Below, one piece after another: positions 4,967 through 44,218 of a stretch of DNA of 64,000 nucleotides. This DNA comes from Chondrosia reniformis. Its lineage: Eukaryota > Porifera > Demospongiae > Chondrillida > Chondrillidae. Location: contig OX359199.1 of NCBI GenBank assembly GCA_947172415.1, positions 956,001-1,020,000 on the forward strand. Reading direction: 5' to 3'. The stretch's first letter is position 1. Each line of letters starts with the position of its first letter. The position numbers were made by a program, and so were the translations under genes. The notes under the pieces were generated by a model. The model was not told the origin of the DNA. It ran no database searches and saw only the letters and a program-made list of their open reading frames with translations.

Positions 4967-7900
4967 ATGCTTATGTTTGCTTGCTTGTTTGGCTTTCTCG
5001 TTCAACTCATACCTGTTGATGGCGCTGAGGTAGTCAAACTAGGTAAGAAATAAGGGATCGGTCAGGTATAATATCTGCTGGGTGGAGCGTAAAGTTTTAG
5101 CAAGCTAAACGAAGATCACTTTGCCAGTCGACAATTGCTTTAGGTTTGAACGTGTCCTCTGGATCTGGTGATTGTAGGTGAAGTAATAAAACGTTGCAGA
5201 ATCATTGGATCTCACGTATGCGTAACTTTAATGGCTATACGTAGGTATAGAATAATAAATGATATTAAACTCTTACTTGCTTTTCATCTATTCAATCACG
5301 TACGAGTCTATACTGTAACGATGTTTAATTTCGATATAAAACATTTGGCGGATCTAGGATGCCCTGCAGGCTTTTGAGAACTAGGAGCACTTAGAAGGTC
5401 TGGTGCTTGTGGGCGGTTTTCGTAATGTAGTAGCTTTGCATTGTGATGCAAGATTCTTTGTTTTACAGGTGATCCTTCCGCCTCTTGTAACGCTTTGGTA
5501 AGAGGAGGAGAACAGATTACAAGTGGTCCTTTTCTGGAGGGTAGCACGTGCGTCACTTATGATGATGATCAGGATTCTTGCAATGATTGTCTCTCCCTTA
5601 ACTGCACATTGGTCATTGAAAGCGTGTTTTCCATTCCATTTCGCATTCCCTTCAGAAATGTCATATTACCTTGCTATGATGAATATAACGGTAGCAACAT
5701 TCATGCTGTAAATTCAATAGTGTATCATTATTTACAAGCTGACAAGGTCTGGTCTAATGTCACAGTGACTGGACATGATGAAGATATTGTATCTTTTGAC
5801 TTTGGTTTGACTAGTGGTAACCTTACCATTATAAGGGATGTTATACAGAATGATACAGGAATCACTTTTGCTGTGAGTGCTATAATCACAATCTCTTAAT
5901 TTTGCTTTCATGCTTTCTAGGCTCTGTTGAGGTGGGCTGGCTAAATATGAAAGAGTTTTATAGTTCTAAAGTTAATTTTAGCAGTAAATTGTTTCGAGAA
6001 TATAATTAAAGACATAATAATTAGTAATTTTCTTTTATTATTATCTTTTTGATTCTTTTTGAAACAGCCGTGCACTGCCATCACTATTACTTATGTTCAT
6101 ATCTGTTCTTCTTTGTATAGGTTAGAGTAAGAAATAATCCGGCAATATTTTCTGTTCTGAATCCTGTCTACATTCCAATTGCTTGTGGTTAGTCTGTGTG
6201 TCTACGTATGTTACAATGTAGGGATACACTGATGATAAGTGAGTGCTAGTGTAGCTTATCCAGATCTGTGGCAGCAATCTCTCTGAAAAGTAACCACATA
6301 AAGTATAAGCAATAATTTCATTTGCTATAGTTTGCTGTTAAAATTATTCTTTAATGTGTATATAATACAATAATATTGCTGTTATATGATAATTGGGCTC
6401 TACAGTTGCTTTACATAAAATGGACAATCTAGAACGACACATTTCAAAAAATATGGCCTATACGTATATAATGACATGAAAAATCTAATACACCATTTTC
6501 CTACATGCTATGCCTAAACAAGCCTATAGGGAACTAAACCTGAAGAGAGCTTTGGATGAATATACAGGAATCTTTTCTTTTTTTTTCTTTCTTCTTCTGC
6601 TCCACTGGGCCAGGCATGTTAAAATAGTCACTATATATGACTTTCGACTTTATGCTATATAGTGTATGTAAATGACACGGAATGTGCCGTAATGACAACT
6701 GTACAGCCGTTTGTTCAAATGGAACTACAACCTGGGGAAATAGTTGGCATAGTGGTTGGAGCAATTCTATTTAGTGTTGTTGTCGTCTCACTTGTGATCC
6801 TTGTGATGATTTGCATAAAGAAACAAAGAAGAAAGAGGAAAAGAGTAAAATGGTTTAATAAGAAGTGAGCAATTAATTATATATATTTGGAGCTCAATTC
6901 ATAACTTTTAGCTTCAGTTTATGACACCAATCTCTATTACGTAGTTGCATCATACCACCTAAGTATTGCATAATGTCCATTCTCTGTTTGCAGGAGTATT
7001 GCTATGTCTCCAGAGAAATCATTTGGTGTAGTAAATAGCAAATTTGAAAATATGCTAGTAAGTCATAGCCAACTCATTTGTTATGGTTTCAGATATTTTT
7101 GTGGGGAATTTAATATGCTGTTTTGAGAGGGAAAACCTAATGTTTAATTATTAATTAAGTTAAAATCATCAGAACATTTGATTAACAAATATGATTAATT
7201 AAATACCTCTTTCGCTATCACTGCAGATGAGAGAGGAGGTTACTAGTTACCAACAGGCTGAAGATAATCCTTACTTGACCTTTGACCTGAAATATGGGCT
7301 TTCTACTCCTTCAGTTGAATTTTCAAATTACAACAAAACTAGATTGGAAACAGAGAAAGATGTTAGTACAAACTGACTGACTATTCACGCTCTGAGGATG
7401 TCCCTCTAATCAGTTGCTTATCTGATTGTTTGTCTATAGATTTGGGAATTTCCTCGTGAGAATCTCATTTACATGAGAGAGTTGGGAAGATGTGCCTTTG
7501 GAAAAGTATTACTAATGAAGGCCAAGGTAGCAAACACATGACATACGTATATTACAAGTTATTGACTCAAGCTTATCTTTAGATGTGATAGAAAGAGTTA
7601 GTGTAGTTAAGTGTTATGTAATACATGTTAGTATGTGTAGCTCTAAGACGACACCAGCAGTTATATTTGCAAGTCTATGAAGTTAAGACTTTCACACCAT
7701 CTTATCTGATATACAATGTGTTTTCTCTGAAAATGTGTTAGGACATTGCTGGCTACGAGGGAACCATTCCTGTTGTTGCAAAGACATTGCAAAGTGACGA
7801 TCCTGATGATCAGAGAAAGTTTGAAGAAGAAACGGAACTAATGAAAAAGTTTTCTCACAAAAATATAATTAGTTTGTTGGGTGAGCATTAGTCTCCTAGC

Positions 7901-10900
7901 AACACATTCTGATTTTGGCTTGCTAGTTCTGTTGACTGTGTGACACTTATCTTCTGTTCCTACCACCATCACATCTGTTGCACTGTTGGCTCAAAGCTGT
8001 ACAATACTTGCATTCATTACTCCTTTTGGATCTCAAGATGGAACATCACTGCACAATAATATATTCTAGGCACAATAGTTTTATATCTATCTAATTCACA
8101 TGTATTCCTTTGTTGGAAGTACACATAGCTATGTTATACTGGATGTAAATATAGTACTGTTCAACTTCAACAACTTAATTGCCACAATATTGTTCATTAT
8201 CTGTAGGTACCTGTGGAAAGGTCCTAGATGGAGCTCCTATGATAATTCAGGAGCTAATGCCTTACGGAGATCTTCAAGGCTTTCTTGAAAACATAAGGTT
8301 AATCATTAATATGCAGTACATGTATTTAACTGTTTCTATCAATGGGAACCTGATACAGCTACACTAGCATTTGTAGCAGTAACTGCAGAATTAAATCTTA
8401 TAATGATATTCATAGGGAGAGTGGTGGAAATGAGATTTCTTCCAGTTTGATGTGCCAAATGGCACTGGATGTGAGTCTAGTGGACACACCCATTTCATGC
8501 ACATAAACCCCTCCCCTCTCCCATGGCTATGTACATGTAGGTGTTGGCTGGTTTGGAGTTTTTGGCTGAGAATAACTATGTTCACAGAGATATAGCCGCA
8601 AGAAACTGCATGGGTAAGGTACATGCGTACGTACATACAGAGTTGAATGCCTTTGAATCTTCTCAGTGTCTAACTCAAGCATTCCTAAGTGCTTGCAGTA
8701 GGATGATTGTGTTCCTAAAGGTCTGGCTAATGGTTAACCACCTTCTGAGGATGCTCTATTGCTCTATCTCGCTCTTTGCTGATTCAATAATAGAAATCTT
8801 ACAAAAGGGTCTTGTTCAGAAGTCTATTGATATATACCAATTGTATAGATGCTTTTTCTCACTGTTGTTCAGTACATAATATATCTTTTAAACATACAAC
8901 TTTTACCTCATTATATTCACTGCTATGTAGTTGGGGATGAATTGATAGTGAAGATAAGTGACTTTGGCTTGACAAGAGCAATCCATAATACCGAATTCTA
9001 CAAAATTCAGAGGCCAGCTCAGTTCCAATTTAGATGGCTGGCACCAGAGTGCATACTTTACGGTATCTTCACTCTCAAGAGTGATATTTGGTGGGTGCAC
9101 ACAAGTGTAGTAGCTACGTACCATATTTCATACAATCTGGTATAAACCCTTAAAATCTTACATAAAAGCTATTCATTTGAGTCATTTTCAGCTGTTTCTT
9201 GTACAAAGTGTACAAATTTGTACCCTTTCAATATAAAACTGTATACACTTGTACAAGAAACAGCTGCAAATTTTGAATAGCCGCTATTTAAGATTTTAAG
9301 GGTTTATACCAGATTGTGTTCGACGTTTGATAGAATATTACCCAAACCATCTCATACCTTTCTCTATCACACCCTATATAACCATGTATATTAGGGGCGA
9401 GACCATCTATGCCCATTTGAATTCCAGGTGACCCCACATACCCATCTTGTAGCCCGCTTTTGTACTTTTTCAATGTTATCACTAAGCCTCTGTTGGTGTG
9501 GAGCCCATACCAGGGCACAATACTCAAGGTGGGGGCGTACTAATGCTGTATATGCTCTAATCTTGGCGTCACGCTGACAGCCATACATTGATCTTCTCAG
9601 TAGGTTTAACACACACTGTGCTTTGAATGCCACCTCTAGTGTGTGGTCGTCCCAGGTAAGTTTGCTGTTGAGCTTTAAACCAAGGTATTTGAATGACTCC
9701 ACCCACTCGAGGTCATTGTTACTGATGTGATATGGAAAGGTAGGGGTGTTTCTTTTACGAGAGATACACATTACCTTGCACTTGCTGGCGTTCAATAACA
9801 ACTGCCACTTATTTGCCCATCTGAGGAGTCTGTTGAGGTCTTCCTGGAGGGTCAGGCAATCTTGATGCGATGCTACCTCTTTGGAGATAGTGCAATCATC
9901 AGTGAAGAGGCCAGTATGGGAGGAGAGATCTTTACCAATGTCGTTAATATAGATAATAAATAATAGGGACCTAGAATTGAACCTTGAGGTACACCAGATG
10001 TAACAACAGACCATTCAGAGCAGGTGCCATCAACTAACACACATTGCCTACGATTCAGAAGGAAGCCACTAACCCAGTCGAGGGGTTTCCCTCTGATGCC
10101 TACGTGCTCCAGCTTAAGCAGAAGATGCTCATGAGGTACAGTGTCAAAAGCTTTGGAAAAGTCAGTAAATATCACATGCGAACTGCTGGTTCTATCAAGA
10201 CAGCGAGCCCAATGGTGCACTGTCTCAAGTAGTTGAGTCTGGCAAGAGTGACCCTTCCGGAAACCATGTTGGAAAGGTGTGAGCTTGTTGTAGCTGACAA
10301 GGAAATCTGTTAGCTGGTTGTGAATAAGTCTCTCCAAGATCTTCACCACGGTACAGGTAAGACTAATGGGTCTGTAGTTGGCAACTAGGTGTTTGTTGCC
10401 TTTCTTAAAGACATGTAGGGGTGACGTTAGCAGAAGTCCAATCATCAGGGAGGTAACCCTGATACACTGACAATGTAAAGAGCTTGGCCAATAACAGATC
10501 ATGGACATCCTCACATGAGATAATGACATCACTTACTTCTTCGTAGCTCCAGGAATCACTTAGCTCCTCTCGTAGTGTGCTGAGGTGGGACGCATTCTCC
10601 TGCACAAAGATGGACTCGAAATGATCGCGAAAGGCTCTCGCTTTCTCACTGGGGTAGGATAATGTATTGCCTTGGTGATGGAGGTCAGGAAAGCGAGAGT
10701 GCTGGCCCCTTACATTTTTCAACCAGCGCCAGAAGAGGCGTTGATCATTATGCAAGTTGGATGTGATTTGGTTTAAGTGATGGTGATGATCCTGCCTGGT
10801 TAGGCTTTGTACCTCATTGCTGATGACTCTGTACCTCTGGAAGTGGTGAGGTTTGCCAGACCGTTTGGCTAATTTGTATGCTCGTCATTTTTTTCGAACC

Positions 10901-13306
10901 ATACGGAGAGTTTGACCAGATAGCCAGTGCATCCTTTTCTTGGGACAGAGTGTGGTTTTGGGTATGCATTGATCAGCCACTGACAGTAGTACATCCCTAA
11001 AATTTATCCAGCAGTCATTGGTGGAGTCTCTTAAGAAGCAACAATTCCAGGGTACTTTGCTCAATAACTCTCTGTATCTGGAGAAGTCAGCCCGCTTAAA
11101 GTATAGGTCCATCGCTTTTGCCCCAAGGGTCTTGGCTTGTGGAAATTGGTAGTAAAAAGAACTGCATCATGATCTGTTCCGGGCAAGTTATCAACCACTC
11201 TCACATCACAAACACCATTGACTTTATTGGTGAAAACAAGGTCGAGGATGCTGGAAACTCTTGTTGGTTCAAGAACCACTTGCTGCAGGTTGTAATCATG
11301 GAGTAGATCGCACAACAGGGTTGCTGAAGGAGATGGACTTGAGTGGCTCCAGTTGATATTAGGTAAATTAAAGTCTCCGCAAAGAACAATTGGGAGGGTG
11401 TTGGGTAAGGAGCTAAGGGAGTTTTGCAGTTGGAGTAAGGCATCAACCCTGAAGCCTGGAGGGTTGTAAAACACCTAGGGGGAGACTTGAGGGAGAAGAA
11501 GCAATCTCGACCCATAGCAGCTCACATTCAGTCTCAATGTCTTGTCTTCGGGTGGCTCCAATGGAATCCTTGATGATGAGCATTACTCCCCCACCATGTC
11601 TGTTTCTATCCCTCCTAAACACTGAATAGCCACAACCAACAAGCTCACCATCAGTTATGGCATCACTAAGAAAAGTCTCAGTTACTGCCAGCACATCAAC
11701 ATTCTGACTATGTAGGAAAGCCTGCACATCAAGCGACTTGTTTACCACACTTCTTGCATTCAGCAGGCAGCACTTCAGTGTGTTAGCTGGGCCAGGATTA
11801 ACTTACATCACCAAAGAGCAGTAGGAGCCAATAGCAATTGGTGGAAACAGGCCGCCGATGCTGATGGTAATAGCGTTTGAGGTGCATGTGAACCCTCGCT
11901 CGCAATGCTGATGATGACAAACACGTAGCTGCTGCCCTTCACAAAGAGGCGACTGGGAGCGAATAGTAAACTGCCACAAGCTTCCTTGTAAGGGTCCCAA
12001 GGATCATGGGTGAAACAAAGACAATAGATCAAGAGGGAAATCCACATGGCCACAGGCACAAATCTAGGTGCCGCCATCTTTTTAAATTGATGAACAGAAA
12101 AATTGATGGTTTAGCATAGGAATCTCTATCTGTATATTTGAAGTATCTTAAGGCCTCATCATCGGTTTTTATCCGTACTATACACGACTTGGCCTTCCTT
12201 CCACTTCTTCATGACTGAAGAACTATAGAGTTGTATACCTTAATAATCCTGTCCACAGGACTGAAATTGAAATGCAGGATATGTCTTGTAGCAGCAGTAG
12301 GAGTAGCTGATTGGAAGTGTTAATTATATTCATAGCTTGTATAATATATTCAATTATAGGTCATTTGGAGTCCTGTTATATGAGATCATCACACTAGCAG
12401 GTACCCCCTATGAAGACTTGGATTGTGACCATGTGGTGGCAGCAATTCAAAATAAGAACTTGTTTCTTGAAAAGTATGTAACTTTATTAAGTATTTAGTA
12501 TGCCTGAGATATATGTACCATACTAACTGCTCACATATTAAGTTGGTCCTTCTTCTTTGAGTTCTTGGTGAAACGTTTCAATCCTGTGGATCTTCTTCAG
12601 TCACTGCATCTCCAAATGCTCTTCAAGCCTAGAGTCCCACCCTTATCATAGTTTGGATGCAGTAAGAAGAAATCCCTACCCCATATTAAGTGTAGACATT
12701 TTTATGAATTGCTGTAGCTATCCTATTTTGTACAAATAAATAAACTCTTAAAAGAAAGAAAATGTAATAAGTTACATGTGGGTTGGTATCCAATGAGTGA
12801 TTATAGCTATAATGAGCTGACATAAAGACTGCAAGGTTGGCTTTGAGGTTTAGCACCCTAAAGACAGCAGATATAGATCTTTGCAACTGTGTATATACTG
12901 GATAGGGAAGGCACCCCATTGTAGTAAGAGTTGGGTAGGCTGTGGATTAGAAATGGGTCCATGCCCCTCCCCTCCCAACTGGACTAGAGGCCTTTTCACA
13001 TTGGCAAACTGAATGCGCATTAACCATTTGCAGTGTGAAAAGGCCTCTAGGTGACCTTGGAAGTCTTTCTGGAAGCTCCTAAGCAAGATTTACTAATATA
13101 TGCACTTCTGATTGCACAATATGATGCCTTTGATGTTAAATATTTCTATTTCAGTATTATCTCTGTCATGCAATTTGTATTCCCCCTGTAGGCCTAGTGA
13201 CTGCCCCAAGGAGGAGATGTATACGGCCATAAGAAGATGCCAGACATATGATCCTGATGACAGACCATCATATGATGAGATTAGAAGCTACTTGTCAATG
13301 AGATAG
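4967..13306 (+). CDS. Receptor tyrosine kinase RTK-A, short Cys-rich ectodomain, atypical P-loop
   Basis: Single-pass RTK, 593 residues, 14 exons: 4967-5042, 5469-5872, 6121-6187, 6663-6864, 6994-7057, 7227-7361, 7440-7526, 7742-7880, 8207-8297, 8416-8470, 8541-8613, 8931-9090, 12360-12473 and 13192-13306. All have GT-AG borders, and the phases give one open frame. A signal peptide (about 1-20) precedes a roughly 185-residue ectodomain with a SCNDC motif, several N-glycosylation sites and no named domain. The transmembrane helix is about 209-234, followed by a basic stop-transfer. An NPYL site and the family juxtamembrane motif precede the kinase (about 325-590). Lys359, HRD (455-457) and DFG (475) are present. 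The glycine loop is GRCAFG instead of GxGxFG, the activation loop has lost one of the paired tyrosines, and WMAPE reads WLAPE. It could be an impaired or pseudo-kinase. Intron 12 (9091-12359) holds a LINE and a hairpin element. The start was chosen for the signal peptide. Ligand unknown. Confidence 0.85.
6475..6618. repeat. Copy of the 'CCACTGGGCCAG' dispersed repeat family (RTK-A intron 3)
   Basis: Carries the family phrases aatctaatacaccattttcc, gctttggatgaatatac and tctgctccactgggccag. Other copies lie at 22720-22925, 24335-24535, 31860-32070, 33480-33675, 40075-40195 (inverted), 57245-57335 and 58905-59120 (inverted). Confidence 0.65.
9132..9317. mobile_element. Palindromic MITE-like element
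   Basis: The left end (acaatctggtataaaccctt...) and the right end (...aagggtttataccagattgt) are near-perfect inverted repeats. A second inner pair is built on cagctgtttcttgtacaa and ttgtacaagaaacagctg. Total length is about 186 bp with no coding capacity, so it is a nonautonomous foldback or MITE. Its right end abuts the broken end of the LINE. Confidence 0.75.
9320..12080 (-). mobile_element. Non-LTR retrotransposon (LINE), decayed, APE endonuclease plus reverse transcriptase
   Basis: It lies antisense inside RTK-A intron 12. Reading down the minus strand: an N-terminal hydrophobic segment (about 12077-11808); a 2A-like LLLLFGDV...NPGP remnant (about 11845-11788) with a frame break; an LLNARSVVNKS start and an APE-type endonuclease with VTETFLS, GDFNLPNINW and TDHDAV motifs (11750-11061); a linker; then a reverse transcriptase with YRPISLT, QHGFRKGHSC, FSKAFDTVPH, SGVPQGSILGP and an altered catalytic box FTDD (10755-9391). 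At least four frame changes show it is dead. The layout, with no RNase H seen, suggests the CR1/L2/Jockey group. The 3' end appears cut off shortly after the thumb region, which is unusual because LINEs normally lose the 5' end. Confidence 0.9.
12568..12604 (-). ncRNA. Hammerhead-ribozyme-like motif (RTK-A intron 13)
   Basis: On the minus strand: stem I GTGA, core CTGAAGA, stem II GATCC-ACA-GGATT, core GAAA, minimal stem III CGTT, then TCAC, which pairs with GTGA. Stem I and stem II both differ in sequence from the copy at 25551-25587 but keep their pairing. The order matches a type I hammerhead with a very short stem III. Activity is not shown. Confidence 0.45.
12984..13051. mobile_element. 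Short perfect hairpin element (RTK-A intron 13)
   Basis: The arm ctagaggccttttcaca is repeated as tgtgaaaaggcctctag about 50 bp later, with a small loop holding gcgcattaa. It looks like a miniature foldback element. Confidence 0.65.
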
Positions 13307-13517: not shown

Positions 13518-16500
13518 ATGGCGTCGTACATCGCCGTTACGTTGATTCTGCTTCGAATCTCGGATGCTGTAGCTCAGACAGCGACAACTGCAAGTGGACG
13601 GAATAGCAGTGAACTGACCGTTAAGTATATCAGTAAGTGGCTTCCTTCCTATTCGTATATACTTCGATTGATTATATAAGACGACGTACAGCATGTACTG
13701 TAATATTATAACTTGGAAGCTCGTTTGCTCTAAAGCTTCTATATCTATAGCCAGTTGCATGCGCATAGCTAGGGTCGTCTGAATCAGGCTATGATTTTGA
13801 TGTGTGGGAGTATAGGAATTAATAAGAAAAAGGGAGGAGGTGTAGCGTGTGAGTAGTGAGGAGGGAGGAGGGTGTAGTGTGTGAGTAGTGAGTAGGGAGG
13901 AGGGTGTGAGTAGTGAGTAGGGAGGAGGGTGCAGTGTGTGAGTAGGGAGGAGGGTGCAGTGTGTGAGTAGGGAGGAGGGTGCAGTGTGTGAGTAGGGAGG
14001 AGGGTGCAGTGTGTGAGTAGGGAGGAGGGTGCAGTGTGTGAGTAGGGAGGAGGGTGCAGTGTGTGCATGAACAAGTAAGGTGGGGAAAGTGTGATATGTG
14101 AGAATTTAAAAGTGTCTAGTTATCCATTCATCCACTTTTAGTATATGCATCATGTCAAGATTTTAATCACATCTTCTTTATCCTTGTAGCAAATGTAACA
14201 AATACGTGTAGAGCTCTTCAATCAGCAGTTGACTCTAGATCTGTGGTAACCAATGATTCATCAGCTGTAAACACTTGCGATCCCCTGGTAGACAATGATG
14301 GTTACACCTGCAATGATTGCTTGAGATTATTTTGCAACTCTTCTGTTATAGTAGACGGCCAACCTAGGCCTATCTTCACTTTCCCTGTAAGGATCATTTT
14401 ATTGCCATGTGAAGGTGGACCACAAAATCACTCTGTCACAGTCATCGTTTTTAGAAGTGGTCAATTTGACGATACATTAGTTAACCTTACTACTAGTAAA
14501 AGCGTTAATCAAACAGTGACTACCATGCTAGCTACATTTCAGGCTAACTACACCCTTACTGTGTCAGTTGTCCAATTAGATTATGGAATCAACCTGGAGG
14601 TGAGCATGTTCATTGTAGTACATACAGTCTATAGTCTACCAACCTGTAGCATGATTGCTTTATAAATTAAAAACATGGACAGTATATAGTATTTATTCAT
14701 ATCTATAGCTATAGTCACCTACCTACTGAGCTAATACATCCCCATTGGTCCACTAGTGCTTGCATGTGACAGCCCCTGAGTGGCTTAATGTACCCAGGCA
14801 ACTGGGATATATAGGGTGAAAGACTGGTTAGCCTAATAGTAATGTCTTGTACCTGCCCAGGTATAGCCCTTTGCTCTTTGACTAGTATACTGGTGCACAT
14901 ATTGTATACATTAATTATATTGCATGCATTGTAACACTAACAATAATAATAACAACCTTTGTATACGTAGGTTGTTTAGAATTATATTGCATGCATTGTA
15001 ACACTAACAATAATAATAACACCTTTGTATGTAGGTTGTTTTGAATGGTCTCATGGAAATGGATCCTGACGTTGTCCTATTTCCGAAGCAAGATGTACCA
15101 CTACAATGTGGTAGGCATATTACTAGCAATATGTAGCGTATATAGTAAACATCAAATGGTTATATATTCTTTCATTAGCATTTAATATAAATACTAGTGG
15201 TGGAGTTATAGTACTATTTCTATTTTGCATTGCATACATAAAATAATCATTAATATTGTCAGTAAGAATATTTGGCAGTTTGTATAACATTTGGCCTTTT
15301 ATCATACATTGTACATATTGATATATGAATGCTGATTATTTTGTAGTGAATGTCCCAAGTTCCCAGTGCTATGTAAGTACAACTGAAATGGGTTTGGAAC
15401 CATTCCTTACAGCTGGAGAACTAGCAGGTGTCGTTATTGGAGTGATGCTTCTTGCTGTGCTGGTCAGTCTCTTTTTTATTCTGACCATATATGGTGTAAG
15501 AAGAGCTTCCAAAGGTAGAAGACAGACAGCAACAATAAATAGGTATTACATTGAACATCCTATAAATTAAATGATATTCATTGATTATTGGATATTTCAT
15601 CATGCAGTGAAGATGTTGACAGTAATGTCGTTAAGTTGGCTGTAAACCCAAGCTATTCAAGTATTGGTCAAGTTAAGGTTAGAAGAATTATAATGGCATT
15701 AAATTTTAATAACTTCTTGAAGCTACGTATAATAACAAGACTTTATGTAAGCACTGGTTTGATCATGTATCATTTGTCTTGTGCATGTATGATCTATAGA
15801 TACACTATACAGTAAGTTATCAATGCATCAAGCCATTTTGTGCTCATAGTCAAAATACAATAGGTATGGCATGTACGTATGTATATCATGTAAGATTTAT
15901 TTTGCTAGCGAGCTCAAACTACGTATAATTCTTGATGATAGGGATTTCTTTTGACTGCACCAAACTTATCTTTGAGACAGTTCATCTTTAGTCTTTGAGT
16001 ATCTCTAAGGTTACCTTAATATTTGTGGTTCATTGTGTGTAATCATTAATCATTAATGCGCCTATGTAATTTATGTGTATTATGTACATGTGTATATACT
16101 TATATAGGGAAGTGACACAACTGAAAATCCCTACTATTCTGAAATAGAGATGAGCCTTGATGAGGCAGCTATAATTTCTCCATATATTGTCTTTAACACC
16201 AAATATGGAGTGACTGCGCCAGATGTGGACTTTAGTTCATTTAACCAAAAGAGAATGGAATCCAGCAATGATGTGAGAACAAGCGACAGCTACTGCTATA
16301 ACATTGTGAATTATACATGTGTAACCAGCATGCGTATACAGTATATATAGTCCTGCTCAGCCCATTTTTGGAATATAATTATAATTTGCACTGAAGATAA
16401 TTATTTGAGAGAAAGTGTACTTATTGCAAAAAGCTATGTACTGTACTTATGACATCTCATATATATACTATACACTATGTATATATATATATACTCATTA

Positions 16501-31900: not shown

Positions 31901-34900
31901 ACATCTAAAGTAAGAAAAATATACATAATAAGAGCTTTGGTATAGTCTTCTCCTTCTTCTTCTTCTCCACTGGACTAGAAAGCTATTTCTGGGAATTACA
32001 CCCTTCCTCAGTGACCCTGGGAGTCTTTGTCTTCTTGTTGATCTTTTGTGAGTTCTTGGCCCTTATATTTTGGATGGACATTTATGGTAGAAATGTATGG
32101 TTACAATACTATTGGACTAAGCACTGTTATACAATTTCAATTATCCACTGTTTGTGTATATGGGGTTGCGTATTGTATATAGATTCCTTGATTTCTGAGC
32201 AAACAATGCAATTTGCTTATTATATATGTACTTGTACTTCTTAAGACCTTGAGCTGACACTTGGCATATTAATTTTTATTAGAATCCTGCGTATACAGAA
32301 ATTCAACCAGATTCTCCCAAAGATTTATCGGACAATTCCCTTCCTCAATTGATCATCCCAAACTATGAGAGGTTGGGCTCTCTCTTTCAACCTGAATTTG
32401 GAGTCAGTGTGCCTGAAGATGTAAACTTTGCATTGTTTAATCAGCAGAGAACAGAAGTTGCTTTAAAGGTAGAATTATTTGTGTCAGATAGAAGTATAGG
32501 AATGTTATATAATATGTACGTATATGCAGATCATTCAGGTATGTATATATATGCATAAATGTGTCTGTGGCCTGTAGAGGTTTAAGCATTATTGCGAAAC
32601 ATGAATGATCTAGATGGACACTCTATCTACCTATAAAGGTACAGTTTGTGGTTAATTGCACAATACCTGTGCTAAGACTATAAGATAATTATGGATAATA
32701 CATGTTTGTACCTTTTTATTAAATCAGCAGTAAATTAAAGTAGCGAGTCCATATTGGTAATTAAGGAGCTTGGGTGATCCGTGTGTCCTACGTTGCTTTG
32801 GCTGAATCTTTGGTCTTGTAGTGAAAATGTCGTGGAGCCTTCCTCATGTAATACGTGCATGTACATGCCTGTATAGATTTTTGTCCCCTATGTCCCTTTA
32901 ATTAGGAGTGGGAGTATCCAAGGGAAAATTTGATATACATGAGAGAACTTGGTGAGGGACAATTTGGAAAGGTTCATCTTATGAAAGCGAAGGTCAGTCA
33001 CTATTCTCTTGTCGCAGCATAAACGTGGACTAGTTAACCTGTTCAGTTTCAGGAAATTCAGTCATCACCTAAAATTAGCAAGGATTGTTATATGTATACA
33101 ACTTAAGATATGGGCAGTGATGAACTATACAATTTATAGGAATCATACAATGACTCAGTGGATAGATACAGGATGGTAGAGTATAATGGTAGACCATTTG
33201 TACTATTATAGTGCTATTGCACTACTAAAGAGACAAGAGTAGAGTGGATCCACCTATAGGGTCCAATGATTTTGACACCTAAGCTAGCTACCTACACTAG
33301 CAGGTTGCTATTATAAGACTGTAATGGCATGTGTGTACATACATAAATATGTGTATGTTATGATTGTACATACATATATGTACACTTGCACTTTGAATTA
33401 GCACACACTTCCGATGTAGTAGTGACATGTGAGATGCCACAGTAACACCCATTAATTTGTACTTTGATTCCTATTTCAATGACTAATCTAAGACACCATT
33501 TTTTACATGCTACATCTACTTAAGAGTAAGGCCTATAGGTAGTGAGAGCTTTGGATGAGGATACAAGAGTTTTCTCCTTCTCTTCTTCTCCACTGGGCCA
33601 GACAGCTGTTTCTGGAAATTCCACTCATCATCAGTGACCCTGGGAATCTTTGTCTTTTTCTTGATCTTTTGTATATATAATAGCATAATCTGCCCCAACC
33701 TCTGTCTACTAATTCCCATGTTATATTTGATTCCTACAATTAAATTATTGCACCATTAAGAAAGATTGCCTATGTCTGCACTTTTTAGTTAGAGATGGTA
33801 TAGTATTCCAAATTCCATTTAACCTCAGAACATCTGCGGTTACAAGGGTACTGTACCAGTTGCTGTGAAGATCTTGAGTAGTCTGAAGGAGGAGGACAGA
33901 CACAAGTTTTATGAAGAAATTAATTTGATGAGAAAGCTACCACATCCCAATATTGTATCTCTTCTTGGTATGTGTCATCAGGCATACATACTGTACATAT
34001 AATATATGAGACATGTATGTACATATACAATGCAGTTGTCTCCCAAAATTTTCAAATTGTTTCATTCTAGTGATGATTGTAAGTCTAGATACTAAACTTC
34101 ACACTGATATCTCTTAGGTTTCTGAGGTTATACTGAAAGATGTACATCTGTAGGTACATCTCATAAGGCTCATGAAGAAGTTCATGTAACGTATAAGTCT
34201 TTATAAATTAAGTACAGTACCTACGCATGTTGTTAGATAAGTACTTAATAGAATGGATAGCCTCTAAAATGAGGTCTAATAGATCTAGACCCGGGTCAAG
34301 ATGGAACTGACGCAAGCGATGTAAATCTAGTCATGTCGGGTGATTCTAATGTGGTCATACACATTTTATATTTTTGCCACATTAATTCTCATAAAGTGAT
34401 TTCTATCTGATATTTTCTATTCTTCATATTATTTAGGAATGTGTTCAGCTGAGGAGGATGGTGCTCCCATGTTGATCCTAGAACTGATGGAATATGGAGA
34501 TTTAAGGAGCTTTCTGATAAAGAATAGGTGGAATACTTATTATGTCTCCTGAGAAAGATTTTATAATAGAATAAGGATTTCTTTAACTGCTTCAAACTTA
34601 CGTACATATCTTTTGAAAGGATCATCTTTTGACCTTTAGAGCATCTAGTAAAGACGCAGTTTTGTTATCTCTCTTGATTGTGTCGGACATTTCAGTCACT
34701 GAAGAAGACCCTCGGGGCTGAAATGTCTGACACTCAAGAGAGACAGCAAAACTGTGTCTTTAGACGCTCTAAAAGTTTCCTATGTATCCTTTCAGTAATT
34801 AATGTGGCATTTTGGATGACTGGTTGCCATTTTAATAGAACTTTGTTCCCCCAGACAAGATAGACTTCCGTCACTTAGTTGGTTGGCATAATTTATTTCA

Positions 34901-36782
34901 ATTATTATTCACTTTTTTATCATAGCCTTTTCCCAGGTTTAGTTCAAATATGTCACGTCACTTAGTTCATATTGTATATACATATGTATACCTTAGTACA
35001 TAAAGCATCGCATATCTTTTACATGACATGTAGCTCCAATAATGATCAAGCAGAGAAGCTGAATTTCGACTATTTCAATAAATTTGCTTCAGATGTGAGT
35101 ATTTTCATAGTATGTCAGAATTATATACACTTTTACAACGTGTGACTACACCAAGTAGCTATATCTCTTTGGTTTATGTGTAGATATCTAGTGCAATGGC
35201 CTTCTTATCCAGTAAACAGTACGTTCACAGAGACATTGCAGCAAGAAACTGCCTTGGTCAGTATATTATATTACATTTATACACAACAGATATGCATACC
35301 TACTGTACGTATACTGTATACGTACATAATATTTATATCTATATACGTATGTACAAATGTGGTTTGAAGTCTACATTTATAGCTACAGAAGCTACATTTG
35401 ATACTAACCTTCCTCGTTCTACTTCTTTAGAGGATTTTATAGAACTCTACGTAGTTTATACATTACATATTTCCTCTAAACTAAAGAGAGTCTGTATGTA
35501 AATATCGTATACCCTATGTATAAATTGTAAGAAGCAATATTAACAGTTCCAATGGATGGTTCTCGATGCAGTTGGTAGTGGCTTGAAGGTAAAGTTAGCA
35601 GACTTTGGTTTGACTAGAGCTGTTCATGATAAGGACTACTACAGAATAGCTAAAGAGACCATGTTACCAATAAGATGGATGGCACCAGAATCTGTACTCT
35701 ACGGAGTGTTCACATTGGAGAGTGATGTGTGGTAAGATAACAGTTAATTGCAGTACACACAGCATTTATAAATGTACATAGTATATGTATGTAAGATAAA
35801 TGTCTGTCTGTATGTATGGTATTATACTTATGATGAGTTTGAATACATATTTATATAGGTCATTTATACTACAACTTTTGTGTATGAATCTTTTATGATC
35901 AAAGACACTGAAGTCTGGACATGTGGAATCCATTAAAATATTTGTGTATACTTTTCAATATTTCAGGGCATTTGGAGTGTTGCTATGGGAAGTTGCTAGC
36001 TTTGGAGAGAGACCCCTGCCAAATCTTTCTGGAGTAGACATTGTTGACATTTTTCAAAGGAAAGGATCAGAAGTGTTATTAGAAAGGTACAGCTATATCA
36101 ACAGTTGTCATAGTAACCTTTTCCCCCTGATTTACAAAGAGGACACCATTTTCCTTAGTACGTGATTGATTTGCCATATTAGGAAACATTTGAATGGAAT
36201 AGACTAAGAAAATTATGACTTAGAGCAAGCATTTGTAGCATTCATTGCTTAACTACGTATGAATGCTATTTTATTCATACAAATGACCTAAGTATTATGA
36301 TAACAAATGCACTGTGACAGTATTAAATTTGAATTTAAACAGCAAATTAGCAAATGTTAATGGTATATACATATAGTGTAATATACGTACTGTCTAATAT
36401 AATGAAAATGGGAAGTAAGTGAAGGCTATTGTCTAGTGATATATAGTAAGAGTACTTGTTGAGCATCAACAACACTACAGAAATTGAACATTTGGACCCT
36501 CATGTCTTCATTGTGCAGCAATAAATGAGGAGAAATACAATCATTTTAAAGAGAGGATTGAAACATTCAATTTCTGTATCCAAGTATTGATGCTCAAAAG
36601 ATAACAATACATAATTGACTCCCCAATATTCTGTTTCTTTTAGGCCGAAGGATTGTCCACTTGAATATTATAAAAGAATGCAAGAATGTCAGAGCTACGA
36701 TCCCGCATCTAGACCAAACTTTAAAACACTACATCATCACTTTATCAATGCAGCCAATACCAAGCTATGTGCGGATTCATAG
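28942..36782 (+). CDS. Receptor tyrosine kinase RTK-D, near-identical duplicate of RTK-C
   Basis: Single-pass RTK, 1001 residues, 15 exons: 28942-29020, 29263-30384, 30470-30734, 30864-31063, 31340-31574, 31729-31777, 32283-32468, 32906-32992, 33829-33967, 34437-34527, 35034-35094, 35184-35256, 35572-35731, 35967-36086 and 36644-36782. Domain order is as in RTK-C: signal peptide, ALK/LTK-like glycine-rich domain, EGF-like end, transmembrane helix (about 592-616), NPAYTEI, juxtamembrane motif and full kinase (GEGQFG 728, Lys755, HRD 853, DFG 873). Most exons and even introns match RTK-C almost base for base. The exception is a patch of about 35 residues near the end of exon 2 ([15 protein letters not shown] here against [15 protein letters not shown] in C) and the last exon's tail. 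It could be a real paralogue or, less likely, an uncollapsed assembly copy; the unique flanks and the patch argue for a real gene. Confidence 0.87.
31134..31310. repeat. VNTR in RTK-D intron 4, about four copies of a 47-bp unit
   Basis: Same unit as at 22036-22170, with one extra copy. Copies within the array are more alike than expected by chance, fitting recent slippage or unequal exchange. Confidence 0.85.
31860..32070. repeat. Copy of the 'CCACTGGGCCAG' dispersed repeat family (RTK-D intron 6)
   Basis: Duplicated together with the gene; near-identical to 22720-22925. Confidence 0.65.
33480..33675. repeat. Copy of the 'CCACTGGGCCAG' dispersed repeat family (RTK-D intron 8)
   Basis: Matches 24335-24535 except for a changed stretch around ctacttaagagtaaggcctataggtagtg. 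Confidence 0.65.
34630..34780. mobile_element. Foldback element with hammerhead-like apex (RTK-D intron 10)
   Basis: Duplicate of 25487-25635. The apex (34695-34731) has GAAATGTC where RTK-C has GAAACGTC. That change breaks the two-base stem III of a hammerhead but improves the alternative simple hairpin. Confidence 0.5.
36454..36600. mobile_element. MITE family 2 copy (RTK-D intron 14)
   Basis: Inverted-repeat element with ttgagcatcaacaacactac at the left and attgatgctcaaaag at the right. It corresponds in position to 27484-27646 but is clearly diverged from it, unlike the introns upstream. Confidence 0.7.
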
Positions 36783-37285: not shown

Positions 37286-40200
37286 ATGGAACGAAGAATG
37301 GTTGAGTATGGATTTCAGCCACTTATTGTAATAAGTCTGATGTTCTTCGGCGTAGTTCATCCTTTGAAAGGCTAGTTTAATTAACCAAATTTTATAGAAT
37401 ATAGCTAGGGATTTAGTAGCTACCAGCATAACAAGCATGCACGTCTCTCTCTCTCTATATATATATCATCGATATGTCTTCATTCGTTCTATACTTTTCA
37501 GATCTATCTTCGTGCAGGTCGTATACATAATATATAAAGTGGACGAGATTCTGAGTTATAGTTCTTATACCATTTTTTCGTATAATTAGATCTGTCTTCA
37601 GTTTCTCTTCGTTTCACCGCATGTGGAGCAGTCGGCAGAAAAGGACCGTCTTACGAAGACTGTGTAGAGTACTACCGTGAAAACAATCCCAATATGCTCT
37701 CTTTCTTAAGAAGTGGCGAAACGGAGGGAGTTCAATATTTTCAACTCCCTAAAAGCAAGGAATACAAGATTGTTGTGGCTGGAGCAAGCGGGGGGAGGGG
37801 TATTTGTGCTTTGAATTATGGTCGTGGATATGCTCTCAGCGGATCATATTTGTTACATGAAAGTGTTAAATACGAGGTTATTGTAGGTCAGCGAGGTTTA
37901 AGTAGCTGTGGCGAAACTGCTATATTTCAATACTGTTCACGAAACGATTTAGAGAACTGCACTAATGCATACTTGAACCTTGACTTAACAAATAAGGATG
38001 GACACCCAATTGATGGAGGAGGTGGTGGAGGTGGAGCCAGTGTATTAAGGGAGACCGTTGATCAGCCTTATGTAGTTGCTGGTGGAGGTGGAGGAGGGTC
38101 GGCACTCAGTAATCATTCATTACTACAGACTATAGCAATCGAATATAATTACTCCTCTGATGCCTCTGGTCCTGGTGTTACTATCAATTTCACATCAGAC
38201 TTAGTTTCATTAATGGACACAGCAGGTGTAGGGGCTGGTTACTATAGCAACGGGTATTCCACTACAAGATTTTCTGGCAATGATTTATCCTTGACATCGC
38301 CAAGTAGTCCTGATGGAGGAGAAGAAATTTGTCATAAGTCAATGCAAGATATCACCACTCCATCGCAAGGTGGATATGGAGGTGGTGGTGCTGGTTGTGA
38401 AGCTGGTGGAGGGGGAGGAGGATACGATGGCGGAGCCGTAGGAGATTTCTTGTACTATGAAGACCTTGTTAGTTTGAACCAGCTTCTTTACATTCCTGGA
38501 CAAGGTGGATCTTCTTATGCACTAAAGGATAAAATAGTTCTGAATAATATTATTGACTATACAGATTCTGAGCTACCACTGAACGAGGGAGATGGCTATG
38601 TTATGTTAGTTCCATCAGACTGTGACTGTACAGGAGATTGCATTTTATACGAAAATGGCACTTTTGAATGTACATGTCCAAATAACACTTATTTGGCAGC
38701 TGATGAGTTTGACTGCTTTCAATGTGAGTATATATTGTTGAAATTAAAAATTTTGTTTTTCCTTATACATACTGTAATTGTAACACTAAACCTTTGTTAT
38801 TTTTCCATAATACAGTGATCACCATTTCTTCATTGGACGTTGAAAGTCAATCCATTGTAGGTAGTTACAGAGTAGAAAGTTACATTTTAAGTGAAGTAAT
38901 GGCCCAGGAAGGGAATGGTAGCAGGACTAATTCTAGTATGGGTAACCGGTCTATTGAGGTATTGGAGGTGTACAGTGTAGAGGCGGAAGTAGTGATAGTA
39001 CCAGAGGAAGGGTCAGGTGTCTGTGTTCTAGCACTAGTGGGTAGTAACAATACCATATATGGAGTTCAGCTGATACAGAGGTAAGCGAACAGAAATTGAT
39101 CTAAAATGTTAAGTTTTACATTTATAAACAGGGATAAGTATAATAAAAAGTTGATTATTGATGAATTTGGATATACATATATATACAGTAGTACTGTTTG
39201 TATATCTTGTAACATTAATTATACATTATACAATATTCAAATAATAGAACAAAATTTAATGAATTACTAGCTGTGGTCGATGGAGAAGTGGTGTTGAATA
39301 ATACTTCAAAAACGTTATTGGATGTACCCATTCAAGTTGGATATTTAATCATTTTCGGGAAAGAAGCAACATGTGTACTGAACTCTGTAAATATAAATGC
39401 TAGCATCAGACCAAGAGATACTGTAGCAGGTACATATGCATATATAATACATATACGTGAATGATATATTTTTTTTAACTTGTGATCATGATATTTTATA
39501 TTAGAATCGTTGGATGATCATGTATTTACTGCTGCAACTATCAATAGTATATTTATGACCTTACTGCTGGATGGAAGTGCTATTGATGGACTTACTACAC
39601 TTAGTCCAGGAGTATTGGCTGCTATTATTGCTTGTTCTATTATTGTACTGTTAATTTGTATTACAAGCTGTTTGGTAGTCCTAGGTTGTATGAAAAGGTA
39701 CAAGAGACAGAGTGTTTTACTTGAAACCAAGTTAGTGCAATATTTAGAAATTTTGTTTAAAACTGATGAACAAGTACGCAAACAAGTACACCTGCGATCT
39801 GTGTATATACATACGTATATGTACATTGGTTGACATTTAACCTGCTATAGTCATATATTCAATGTTGCCTCATATATGGTCTATTTATGATAAATATCAC
39901 GTGATAAATACACATGTACAGACAGATAATCATATATAATATATTATAAGCCATGCAGTATTCTATATTAATAAATGTATTTTACCATAGTGCATTTAGA
40001 GAGTGGTAAATTAAGAATTTAAGGATTTTATTATGCATACTTACAGCTTTGTACAGTAAAATACATTACCCAGTGGAGAAGAAAGAGAAAACTCTTGTAT
40101 CCTCATCCAAAGCTCTCACTAGGTTCCCTATAGGCCTTTGATCTAAAGTCTATAAAGTAGAATATATAGGAAAATGATGTGTTAGATTATTCATACATAG

Positions 40201-43200
40201 TGAGATCATGTTACACTGCATGATTATACGTATTGGCACCTTATTATGTATTCCAGTGATGTGCATATTAACCATTATGAGATGAATGAAGTGGCTTCAA
40301 TAGGAATTGAACCTGTAAGTGTATATATGTAGGAAAAAAGAGTAATGGTTTGACGGTTATTATACAATTAATACATTGTTATCCATCCCCACTGAATACA
40401 TGCGAAAGAATAACTGTTTCCATTCTTGTGGCTTATACATGAAAATGCTCAGACTATATACTCATGTCTTATTGGCCTAAAGTTTAAATTAGATCATCAC
40501 ATGCCAATAAACAATGCCAGTTGCAATACATACATACCATATGACTTCTTACATAGAAAATTGGAGCACTAAATGCTGAGTATGAGTCATTTCCACAGTT
40601 GGAGTTTCCTAATTATGAGCGAATGCCAGTATCTCTCTTCCAACCTGAATTTGGAGTCAGTGTACCTGAAGATACTAATTTTGCATTGTTTAATCAGCAG
40701 AGAACAGAAGTTGCTCTAAAGGTAGGATTATTTGTATCAGATAGGAGTATAGGAACGTTAGTTACAGTCATCCATGTAATACTTACAGTATATATATATA
40801 ATAGATAGCTATATATATATAGGATAGGATATGTCCTGAATTACATAATTTATGTATGTTATATCTGCAGAAACATACATATACATTATATTGCATTGCA
40901 GCAGTTTTTAAGACTGAAATGTGATTCTACAATACTGTACGTATGTAATTTCCTAATTATGAAGTAAATTACATGTATGAATATTATAATTTTACTTATT
41001 ATATATTTGTGATCCCTATGTCCCTTTAATTAGGAGTGGGAGTATCCAAGGGAAAATTTGATATACATGAGAGAACTTGGTGAGGGACAATTTGGAAAGG
41101 TTCATCTTATGAAAGCGAAGGTGAAATGCTTAACATTATACATGGGTACTGACATTAAGTAAAATCTATAAAATATTTATACAAATTATGTGGATTTCTT
41201 GAGTTATAGTATATAAATTTGTAATACCCTATATACATTGCATTTGATCTACGTAACTACAAACTCTTTTCCAATTTCCATTTATTCTCAGAACATCTGT
41301 GGGTATCAAGGTACTGTACCAGTTGCTGTGAAGATCTTGAGTAGTCTGAAAGAGGAGGACAGACACAAGTTTTATGAAGAAATTAATTTGATGAGAAAGC
41401 TACCATATCCCAATATTGTATCTCTTCTTGGTATGAAATTTGTATATGCATAGTATGCATTCTTACTATGTATATATATAGTCATTGCATGGGATGGATA
41501 TATATATACATATGTACAGTATGCATAAAGCAATGTAAAGTTAATATGTATATGTATAATAATATTATACATATGTAAATAGCATGAAAGAACTTTAAAT
41601 CAAATCTCAGATTACTGTACTAGTAGCCTACATAATAATCGGACATGAATTGAATGATTACTAGTTGACCGGCAATATTGTGTAACATTTATTACGTAAT
41701 GCAAGTGATTTCCTTCTGATAAAGATATTTCTTATTTAGGAATGTGTTCAGCTGAGGAGGATGGTGCTCCCATGTTGATCCTAGAACTTATGGAATATGG
41801 AGATTTAAGGAGCTTTCTGATAAAAAATAGGTGGAATACTTATTATGTATCATAAAGTCTGTGTTTATGTACTGATTGATGACTGAAAACTGCATGTGAT
41901 TCTATATACATGTATCGACTGTATATGGATGTCCTGGGTTCCATTCCTAGTAATTAATGTTGCTTCTTTTAGTTTGTGTTTAAATTTCCCCCCTTTGTTC
42001 ACAATTTACTGAATGCCAGGGTTTGATGAATATATATAACTTATTGAAAATAAAAACATCCTATAGTTGATACTTGTATTATAATAACACCAGTTTGATA
42101 TATATACTCATGCAGGCTATATGTATATTTTACATGATTTATACTAATTATATAAATAAAGTATTAAAATGCACATGCATACACATGAATTATTTAACTC
42201 ATGTTTGCCACAATGTAGATCTAGACCCAATGGCTCTTCAGCTGAAACACTGAATTATGACTATTTTAATATGTTTGCCTTGGATGTAAGTTCAATTGTA
42301 TATATCTAATTTCACAGAAACAATTTGAAAGCGTATGTATATATTAAGTGGAATGTATATGTATGTACTATATGTAATGTGCATGTATGTGCTGTATAAC
42401 TATTATATACATGATGCATATATTTTCACGTACGTAGATATCCAGTGCAATGGCATTCTTATCTAGTAAACAGTACGTTCACAGAGACATTGCAGCAAGA
42501 AACTGCCTTGGTCAGTATATTATATTACAGTACATGTGCCTACATTTTAGAATATATATATATATGGTTTAGTATATAGGGATGGCTAAAAACATGGCTG
42601 CCCTATTCAATGTATTATATCAAGCATCACCTCATAAATCAGCAATAAAGTGATTTTTGGTTACATTTGACCATTTATAGTCATTAACATATATATTTCA
42701 TGTTTCAATGCTCTACTACCGTCACAAAATTGTAAACATGTAAAGTTATAGGCAAAATTCTGAAATTCCTCGTGCATTTTATTCTTTATTTGGTAAGCTA
42801 CAGGAAGATATTTTGTCGTCCAAGATCTGACATATATATACCTTCTGCACATTGTACTTGTTCAACGTTTATACACTGCTTTGAAGTAATTGATTATATT
42901 ATGTACACACATAAAAATTGTGTGTGTGTAAATCTCGTAAATATATTCTATGTATAAATATGTAAAAAGGGTGGTTCTCAATGCAGTTGGTAGTGGCTTG
43001 AAGGTAAAGTTAGCAGACTTTGGTTTGACTAGAGCTGTTCATGATAAGGACTACTACAGAATAGCTAAAGAGACCATGTTGCCAATAAGATGGATGGCAC
43101 CAGAATCTGTACTCTATGGAGTGTTTACATTGGAGAGTGATGTCTGGTAAGGTAACAGTTAACTGCACATTTATACATGTGCAGGGCTCACATGGAGGGG

Positions 43201-44218
43201 GTAGGGGGAGGCTAAGATTGATCTTGCCCCACCCCCGTAAAATAATCTACAGTAGCACAAGGTAATTGGGATTTTAAACACTGGGCCCAGGCTCTTTTGC
43301 AATGTTAAATAGCTGAGGATTTCCTGAGTGAACATGTAAATTAAAGTTATTAAATGCATAGTGCACATCTTTGGGATGGTACATCCTTTGACTTTTGAGT
43401 ACTTAAAACTGAAGAAGATCCCCAGGGTCAAAACGTTTGACCAAGAAACGAAACCAAACTGCGTTTCTAAATGCTCAAAAGTCGAAGGATGTACCATCCC
43501 AAAGATAAGTTTGACGCAGTTAGAAGGAATTCTTATTCTATCACAATACACATGTACATAATTCATATTTTGCATACATATTTTTAATATTGTTTTGTTG
43601 GCCTCCTTCATAGGGCTTTTGGAGTGTTGCTATGGGAGATTGCTAGCTTTGGAGAGAGACCACTTCAGCATCTCGATGGAGTAGAGATTGTGCACATTAT
43701 TCAAAGTAAAGGATCACAGTTATTTTTGGAAAGGTATGAAAGGTACCACTTATTTAAATAATTGGCAGTTGATCCAAGTACTTTATAAATGTATAAAAGA
43801 TATTATAGAGTGGCTATAGGAAAGCTCACGTTGAAATTTGATCACTTGTACTTCCCGCTTTACACTCTGTTGTATCACACGTGACCTATCACTATCTGCC
43901 TGCTTTTTGTACTTATACAGTATATAGTGTTTGTTTACTTGTCATTACTGATGAAGGCTGCCGTAGGTTGTCGAAACGTTTGAGAGAACCACTTCATGTT
44001 GGCTAGTGTTTACAAGTGATCGAATTTCAACAGTATAATAGATATGTAATTCTATATTAATATTATATGTACATACATATAGACCTCTAGAATGTCCCGA
44101 TGAGTACTTCAAAAGAATCAAAGATTGTCAAAATTATGATCCAGCTTCTAGGCCAACATTTCAGGAAATCTACCAACATTTTAGTAATACAAAACAGACT
44201 ATACCCGTCAACAAGTAG
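37286..44218 (+). CDS. Receptor tyrosine kinase RTK-E, ALK/LTK-like ectodomain, mosaic gene
   Basis: Single-pass RTK, 995 residues, 15 exons: 37286-37370, 37590-38723, 38816-39080, 39248-39429, 39505-39730, 40257-40314, 40557-40721, 41034-41120, 41292-41430, 41740-41830, 42219-42285, 42438-42510, 42987-43146, 43614-43733 and 44083-44218. Exon 1 gives a signal peptide (about 1-27). Its donor reads G|GCTAGT, where C and D have G|GTTAGT, so intron 1 would be a GC-AG intron. The ectodomain has the glycine-rich runs and EGF-like end of RTK-C but is diverged over most of exon 2. The end of exon 2, intron 2, exon 3 and kinase exons 8-10, 12 and 13 are almost identical to C/D. The transmembrane helix is about 592-616 with its own sequence. 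The C/D site NPAYTEI is missing. Kinase motifs are complete: GEGQFG (721), Lys748, HRD (848), DFG (868) and YY loop. Probably active; ligand unknown. Confidence 0.86.
40075..40195. repeat. Inverted copy of the 'CCACTGGGCCAG' family (RTK-E intron 5)
   Basis: Reverse-complement family phrases: cagtggagaagaa, cttgtatcctcatccaaagc, ccctataggcctttga and aaaatgatgtgttagatt. Confidence 0.6.
43368..43504. mobile_element. Foldback element with degenerate hammerhead-like apex (RTK-E intron 13)
   Basis: Arms atctttgggatggtacatcc and ggatgtaccatcccaaagat are perfect inverted repeats, extended inward by cttttgag / ctcaaaag. The apex (43405-43441) has CTGAAGA, GATCC-CCA-GGGTC and CAAAACGTT. The conserved GAAA is changed to AAAA and stem I is absent, so this copy would not be a working ribozyme. 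Confidence 0.6.
43830..44031. mobile_element. Foldback element with CTGATGA...GAAA motif (RTK-E intron 14)
   Basis: Arms gttgaaatttgatcacttgta (43830) and tacaagtgatcgaatttcaac (44011) are inverted repeats with one mismatch. Inside lies CTGATGA (43948-43954), then about 18 bases, then GAAACGTT (43973-43980). The core matches the hammerhead consensus but stems I and II are weak. Confidence 0.5.

Follow-up and report, generated by a model that had tools for sequence, protein, structure and literature searches.

Sponge receptor tyrosine kinases of one family with two different ectodomains, one of them of ALK/LTK type

How did neighboring receptor genes that share one kinase come to carry two ectodomains without detectable homology to each other? 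This question is raised by a stretch of 64,000 nucleotides of the sponge Chondrosia reniformis (assembly GCA_947172415.1, contig OX359199.1), hereafter the window, which corresponds to C11:956001-1020000 of a 117,379,552-base genome in 15 contigs and contains five tandem genes for receptor tyrosine kinases (RTKs), RTK-A to RTK-E, referred to below by their letters. Coordinates without a contig name are window positions. The initial annotation had proposed that ectodomains were swapped onto a constant signaling module and that the array may be a self-diversifying receptor system. The explanation favored here as a whole, with a probability of roughly 0.8, is that A to E and two relatives outside the window, RTK-F and RTK-G, form one sponge family of single-pass RTKs with a replaceable ectodomain block, that the block carries an ALK/LTK-type module in C to G, and that gene conversion has made mosaics of C, D and E. 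The architecture, the homology to ALK, the single kinase clade and the mosaics are read from the sequence itself; the replacement event is a step further removed.

Gene models of A to E were built exon by exon from the genomic DNA. None of the five models contained an internal stop, and all internal splice sites were GT-AG except for one GC donor in RTK-E exon 1 (GCTAGT at 37371-37372; GTTAGT in the counterpart in C and D). A signal peptide, an ectodomain, one transmembrane segment, the catalytic lysine, HRD and DFG were found in the translations, where motifs were read by eye, and Pfam PK_Tyr_Ser-Thr was found in A, B and C, the genes scanned, at 7.1e-73, 6e-80 and 6.4e-82, respectively. In all five genes, the transmembrane exon (phase 1->2) is followed by one short exon (2->0), by the juxtamembrane exon (0->0) and by a kinase region in exons of phases 0->0, 0->1, 1->2, 2->0, 0->1, 1->2, 2->2 and 2->stop; only in B are the 1->2 and 2->2 kinase exons fused, the DV/W intron being absent. 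The models thus confirm both the common kinase-exon borders and phases, minus one intron in B, and the identical exon order downstream of the transmembrane exon. They also confirm the division between a short Cys-rich ectodomain in A and B and a long glycine-rich one in C to E. The former comprises approximately 160 residues over two exons (phases 1->0->1), with 8 Cys in each gene when the count takes in the beginning of the transmembrane exon, and its main exon is 28% identical between A and B. The latter comprises approximately 380 residues with 16-18% Gly in a single exon, followed by a second domain in two more exons (phases 1->1->2->1).

A sixth array gene, RTK-F, lies outside the window 26 kb after E, with its glycine-rich domain (GRD) at approximately C11:1026.7-1027.9 kb, and RTK-G is located on the minus strand of the same chromosome at approximately 2.30 Mb, 1.3 Mb away. 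Both run on into kinase exons of the A-E family with like borders and phases, and both lack the phase-0 intron that is present in A to E before the helix starting ISSAMAFL in C. Their transmembrane exon was read by eye as phase 1->2, and their GRD as split by a phase-1 intron absent from C to E.

The long ectodomain of C to E is, as judged by sequence comparison, a homologue of the TNFL-GRD ligand-binding region of human ALK/LTK. When the exon-2 ectodomain of RTK-C was searched against the PDB, the human ALK ligand-binding fragment 7mzw was matched over its full length at 3.3e-18, followed by LTK (8.2e-10), worm SCD-2 (0.0031) and a next match at 0.048. Pfam ALK_LTK_GRD scored 42.4 bits in the same exon (cut-off 24.5); exon 2 of RTK-E matched no Pfam family at E<=1. 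Glycine bias was controlled for by shuffling the non-glycine residues of ALK 1000 times with the glycines fixed. Local comparison with ALK was significant for all five genes, C to G (7.8e-14 to 8.4e-25; 54.8 to 90.9 bits), and for each of them 0 of 1000 shuffles equaled the real score, the best shuffle reaching 26.1 bits. A five-gene profile scored 123.9 bits against ALK (1.1e-34), compared to 24.9 for the best shuffle. The TNFL part freed of poly-Gly matched ALK at 2.7e-8 in C and 4.5e-10 in G, the two genes tested. The position and cysteine pattern of the EGF-like (EGFL) part after the GRD fit ALK, and 10-11 of the 12 ALK cysteines are kept in the sponge ectodomains. In a Foldseek search with a predicted model of RTK-C exon 2, 19 of 19 matches at E<=0.001 were ALK/LTK chains; the Foldseek score also uses sequence letters, and these matches count as support only.

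The module appears confined to this family within the genome. All 13 matches of a genome search with the C ectodomain fell in C, D, E, F and G, all on C11, and a search with PF12810, formerly a broader 'glycine-rich' family known from protists, returned two matches, C and F. The TNFL part opens exon 2 directly after the signal exon in C, D and E. The N-terminal part of ALK consists of MAM-LDLa-MAM, which is absent from mammalian LTK; no MAM or LDLa was found by Pfam in RTK-C, the one GRD gene scanned whole. A tree of the GRD was discarded, its branches being too long to use.

Several results weigh against the homology to ALK. The EGFL part alone was matched as well by 17 of 1000 shuffles in C, and scored 13.0 bits compared to 12.8 for the best shuffle in G. 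Composition-adjusted BLASTP against ALK gave no match for C, E and F and weak matches for D (E 0.15) and G (E 0.028). The predicted model of RTK-C exon 2 had low confidence (pLDDT 38.9), and that of the B ectodomain was useless (pLDDT 36.9).

Two genome searches with the short ectodomain gave 7 and 9 matches; 2 and 4 of these, respectively, fell in the transmembrane region (query 144-220 at widest), and no gene but A and B matched the ectodomain exon itself. A PDB search with an A/B profile returned nothing under E 1 and a single match at E 1.1. A relationship between this ectodomain and the membrane-proximal domain of C to E was rejected by hhalign (probability 0.1%), in a comparison in which the A1 entry also took in the start of the transmembrane exon.

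The kinases were compared in a tree of 24 rows, consisting of the 7 family members (A-G), 10 other loci of this genome with a kinase encoded by a single open frame, and 7 human kinases; loci L023, L024, L029 and L030 were dropped because they had no usable frame. The genome kinase searches had scored 135 of 629 candidates in one case and 134 of 1104 in another. A second tree of 14 rows was a chosen subset of B, C, F, G, six human kinases and four sponge kinases. In the 24-row tree, A to G formed a single clade with support of 100/100. The best inner split separated A+B (73/80) from C-G (72/80), both weak, and is concordant with the ectodomain grouping, so that the discordance between kinase and ectodomain trees expected from swapping did not appear.

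Under thin sampling, grouping of ALK with A to G was rejected in 24 rows (p of the approximately unbiased (AU) test 0.0214), as was its grouping with B, C, F and G in 14 rows (p-AU 0.00238). ALK, ROS1 and INSR clustered at 98/95 in 14 rows and 88/85 in 24 rows. The best single-domain matches of the RTK-C kinase in the PDB were TrkB, MuSK and TrkA, and no ALK occurred in the best 60 matches. Because the ALK kinase falls outside the A-G clade, the receptors of C to G join an ALK-type ectodomain to a kinase other than ALK's. Two points speak against a fully settled kinase history. Five alternatives to the best inner branching among A, B, C-E and F-G were not rejected at 0.05 (AU p 0.27 for A-E together, 0.13 for B+C-E, 0.39 for B+F+G, 0.42 for A+C-E and, closest to rejection, 0.06 for A+F+G), and the placement of the family shifted with sampling, from Trk/MuSK-like (78/70) in 24 rows to a position beside INSR/ALK/ROS1 (93/94) in 14 rows.

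Four intron-bearing loci, L075-L078, were used for intron positions only and were not in the tree. The NCL/VG intron was absent from all 4 of these tyrosine kinases, which come from elsewhere in this genome and one of which is Abl-like by our own reading; in this respect the exon layout is therefore characteristic of the family. Introns near DVW are more widely spread, as 3 of the 4 have one a codon earlier and the fourth has one just after. Distant clades of A/B and C-E with independently placed introns, which would have spoken against a common chassis, did not occur when trees and introns were checked. Among other kinases of the genome, the best-scoring one outside A-G for the C query was L009 (C12:6814555-6818397), with its kinase in one open frame, which by eye is an RTK with a kringle-like stretch ahead of the membrane. 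Loci L011, L012, L013, L015 and L016 form a cluster at C9:6.66-6.70 Mb, each with the kinase in one open frame and an SH2-like stretch (the labels SH2 and Src-type are our own reading).

The constant part of the family consists of the transmembrane exon, preceded by phase 1, the juxtamembrane exon and the kinase exons. The replaceable part is a phase-symmetric (1-1) block flanked by two phase-1 introns, one that follows the signal exon in A to E and one that precedes the transmembrane exon. In C to G this block holds the ligand-binding module of ALK/LTK type, with TNFL, glycine-rich and putative EGF-like parts, plus membrane-proximal sequence, and in A and B the short Cys-rich domain, otherwise unmatched in this genome. 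Since both blocks start and end in phase 1, either fits between signal and transmembrane exons in frame. Insertion of phase-symmetric blocks is classic exon shuffling. We infer a replacement of the exon block, placed on a single, weakly supported branch, the one leading to A and B, and we lean towards an ancestral GRD because RTKs with the module exist both in this sponge and in bilaterians. The proposed swapping is thus upheld as far as one kinase family, shared introns, two ectodomains without detectable homology and phase-1 bounds are concerned; repeated swaps are not supported, the data fitting one replacement on one branch.

The reverse direction, in which the lineage of C-G acquired the ALK-type module and A and B retain the ancestral ectodomain, is less likely. 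It is allowed by the kinase tree, whose split between A+B and C-G permits either direction, and it draws on the separation of the A-G kinase from that of ALK, which implies that at some time either the module changed from one kinase lineage to another or the kinases themselves diverged. The occurrence of the module on RTKs of both a sponge and bilaterians, however, favors an old association, and neither the rest of the genome nor, under E 1, the PDB gave a match to the A/B domain. Replacement on the branch leading to A and B remains the preferred course of events. By analogy with ALK, whose family is activated by ALKAL, Jeb or HEN-1 ligands, the products would be ligand-gated RTKs that act through ligand-induced dimerization and trans-phosphorylation. 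A degenerate P-loop in RTK-A counts against this for that gene: by eye it reads GRCAFG (7440-7526), compared to GEGQFG in B, with lysine, HRD and DFG kept, and the activity of RTK-A may be reduced given this deviation.

RTK-C and RTK-D are 96% identical over 7750 aligned positions, and yet their GRD contains one patch of 38-42 codons in which dS (silent divergence) was 1.34, compared to 0.036 in the exon sequence before it and 0.172 behind it. In the preceding exon sequence dN (amino acid-changing divergence) was 0.032, nearly as high as dS. C and E share 36 of 56 patch residues, and D and E share 24 of 49; C is closer to E here, and D is therefore the likelier recipient. A genome DNA search with the D version of the patch returned D only; the same search also missed C, and a donor as diverged as C would escape it. 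The donor may be lost, allelic, unassembled or too diverged to find. C-D divergence also climbs at the 3' end. A 1109-bp orphan copy of the C 3' end (exons 14-15), 99.8% identical, lies inverted on the minus strand at C11:822525-823632 (L070), approximately 150 kb upstream of the array. The inverted copy and the 3' divergence of C and D together indicate that the array has been rearranged recently.

Such a patch invites the reading that the array generates diversity for recognition, in immunity or allorecognition, by renewing its GRD patches from donor sequences. The excess of patch dS over that of the preceding exon with its high dN, the recovery of D alone by the DNA search and the uneven sharing of patch residues with E speak for it. 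We consider it improbable, since there is a single patch in a small array, dN was the lower of the two values in each of the five C-E segments for which dS was defined, and the donor search was insensitive to a donor as diverged as C. What can be kept of the self-diversifying array is a germline patchwork, for which the C/D/E mosaics described below and the one divergent GRD patch are strong evidence; anything beyond it is unsupported.

Comparison of C with E revealed segments of very different silent divergence. Their dS was as low as 0.083 in the EGFL part plus exon 3 and 0.148 in kinase exons 8, 9, 10, 12 and 13, and as high as 1.60 in TNFL-GRD, 1.80 in exons 4-7 and 1.41 in exons 14-15, with exon 11 saturated. 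The five kinase exons of E are 94-100% identical to those of C in nucleotide sequence and are flanked by unalignable introns; introns of C and E reached 47-64% after forced alignment, except for intron 2 at 97%. One tract spans an intron, running from the EGFL end of E exon 2 through intron 2 and exon 3. Identity also extends beyond other exon ends, with 66 of 68 bp between E and D before exon 3, 33 of 34 bp between E and C after exon 13, and 19 of 19 bp between E and D after exon 12, where identity between E and C ends at 6; at some other exon ends it stops within a few bases. At the four sites in exon 13 that distinguish C from D, E reads D, D, C, C, which points directly, if on few sites, to a mixed origin.

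In permutations of fourfold sites along the gene, in which no exons are chosen, exon heterogeneity and run length both gave p 5e-5, the floor of 20000 permutations, for C-E and for D-E. Fourfold sites of C and E were alike at 88 of 95 in exons 3, 8, 9, 10, 12 and 13 and at 90 of 179 elsewhere; these exons were picked for the Fisher test after the data were seen. Segments with silent divergence far below that of the rest, extending into introns, are what gene conversion leaves, and short-tract conversion among C, D and E fits best. Recurrent conversion of this kind would keep the kinase core of the three genes uniform, the GRD remaining divergent. Conversion mediated by cDNA, suggested by the mostly exon-sized tracts, was set aside, as identity enters some introns by up to 19-68 bp.

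Ordinary tandem duplication and divergence, with purifying selection on the kinase alone and no exchange between copies, is a most unlikely source of this pattern. Kinase domains are generally better conserved than ectodomains, and most of the exons alike in C and E encode the catalytic core, but the silent sites are alike too, both permutation tests were at their floor and identity enters introns; duplication without exchange is already contradicted, and protein-level selection alone does not explain the pattern. Least likely of all is an assembly artefact that mixed C, D and E from one another or from two haplotypes, for although two genes as alike as C and D make a mis-join-prone repeat, no reading frame or splice site is broken in any of the five genes and the near-identical exons of E sit between E's own introns.

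Table 1. Features of the RTK array, in window positions
Feature	Positions	Strand	Description
RTK-A	4967..13306	+	14 exons, 593 aa; signal exon, short Cys-rich ectodomain, transmembrane segment, kinase
RTK-B	13518..19665	+	13 exons, 642 aa; architecture as in A; DV/W intron absent
RTK-C	19947..27827	+	15 exons, 1006 aa; ALK-type ectodomain, transmembrane segment, kinase
RTK-D	28942..36782	+	15 exons, 1001 aa; tandem copy of C
RTK-E	37286..44218	+	15 exons, 995 aa; ALK-type
RTK-A ectodomain, exons 2-3	5469..6187	+	phase 1->0->1; matched only in A and B
RTK-B ectodomain, exons 2-3	14190..15110	+	phase 1->0->1
RTK-C exon 2, TNFL-GRD-EGFL module	20159..21295	+	phase 1->1; Pfam ALK_LTK_GRD, PDB ALK
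RTK-C exons 3-4, membrane-proximal domain	21372..21965	+	no Pfam family above cut-off
RTK-E exon 2, TNFL-GRD-EGFL	37590..38723	+	58% aa identity to C
RTK-E intron 2 and exon 3	38724..39080	+	compared to C: intron 74/76 aligned bases, 16 gap columns; exon 256/265
Divergent GRD patch of C	21034..21159	+	compared to D, codons 319-358
D counterpart of the GRD patch	30135..30248	+	
LINE-like remnant	9394..11802	-	RTK-A intron, exons 12/13; RVT_1 and Exo_endo_phos pieces in two frames (Pfam)

The remnant resembling a long interspersed nuclear element (LINE) lies within RTK-A, and the C-lobe exons of that gene were located beyond it. A 67-nt inverted repeat (27995-28253; 99% complementary) is found immediately 3' of RTK-C. 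A short dispersed element, 88% alike between copies, occurs at 24431-24515 in a C intron, at 33575-33659 in a D intron and, inverted, at 58920-59004, with relatives in an E intron and at approximately C11:817.6 kb. Adjoining the array is a 487-codon open frame (45635-47095, minus strand) with a sulfotransferase domain (Pfam 4.9e-23), followed by a 105-bp tandem repeat (47850-48699) whose six register copies match the reference at 62-91%. A 170-bp tandem satellite in two blocks (50570-54763) lies between E and F, and its 15 register copies match the reference at 65-92%.

Compared to human ALK/LTK and worm SCD-2, the sponge genes have the TNFL and glycine-rich parts and a putative EGF-like part in identical order and are 31-33% identical to human ALK across 317-322 aligned residues, and like ALK they have a single transmembrane segment and a tyrosine kinase. 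A juxtamembrane motif of NPxY type is NPAY in C and D and NPYY in B, compared to NPNY in ALK, and is absent from E. They differ from ALK in that the A-G kinase is outside the ALK group, in the missing MAM and LDLa of the RTK-C model, in the extra membrane-proximal sequence after the EGF-like part, and in that five module-bearing genes occur on one chromosome. A kinase-based survey of holozoan tyrosine kinases counts ALK with the families that arose in Bilateria, and a section that leaves the glycine-rich domain unnamed gives the ALK kinase motifs as older than the ALK LDLa domain (PMC8662651). The words Porifera, sponge, cnidaria and Amphimedon do not occur in the main text of a paper on ALK/LTK evolution (PMC7851593), and a passage of PMC10605310 states that ALKAL homologues were not found in non-vertebrates. 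No earlier report of an ALK-type receptor in sponges was among the matches listed in the open-licence literature.

New here is an RTK family that pairs an ALK/LTK-type ectodomain with a different kinase, alongside a sister ectodomain; the array itself has been shaped by conversion. The occurrence of the ALK-type module on sponge RTKs takes its history further back than that of the ALK kinase and makes the re-pairing of ectodomain and kinase directly testable. Taken jointly, and only tentatively, the data would allow that the module was on RTKs before the sponge split, on a kinase other than ALK's, that the known ALK family is a later re-pairing, and that in the sponge the module is varied by patch replacement and the kinase core kept uniform by conversion, in a slowly evolving recognition array.

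In tandem families under gene conversion, near-identical and saturated segments alternate in short tracts. The sponge array differs from these in that its tracts are mostly approximately exon-sized between introns that can no longer be aligned, and in that the kinase core has been evened out and the GRD has not. Shuffling of ectodomains on insulin-receptor-like RTKs across holozoans has been described in a part of the holozoan survey (PMC8662651), and there, as here, many ectodomains are found on related kinases. The sponge array differs in that the block that was exchanged can be seen with its intron phases and with the two ectodomain types next to each other. The phase 1-1 exchange unit and the conversion tracts are thus visible in one place.

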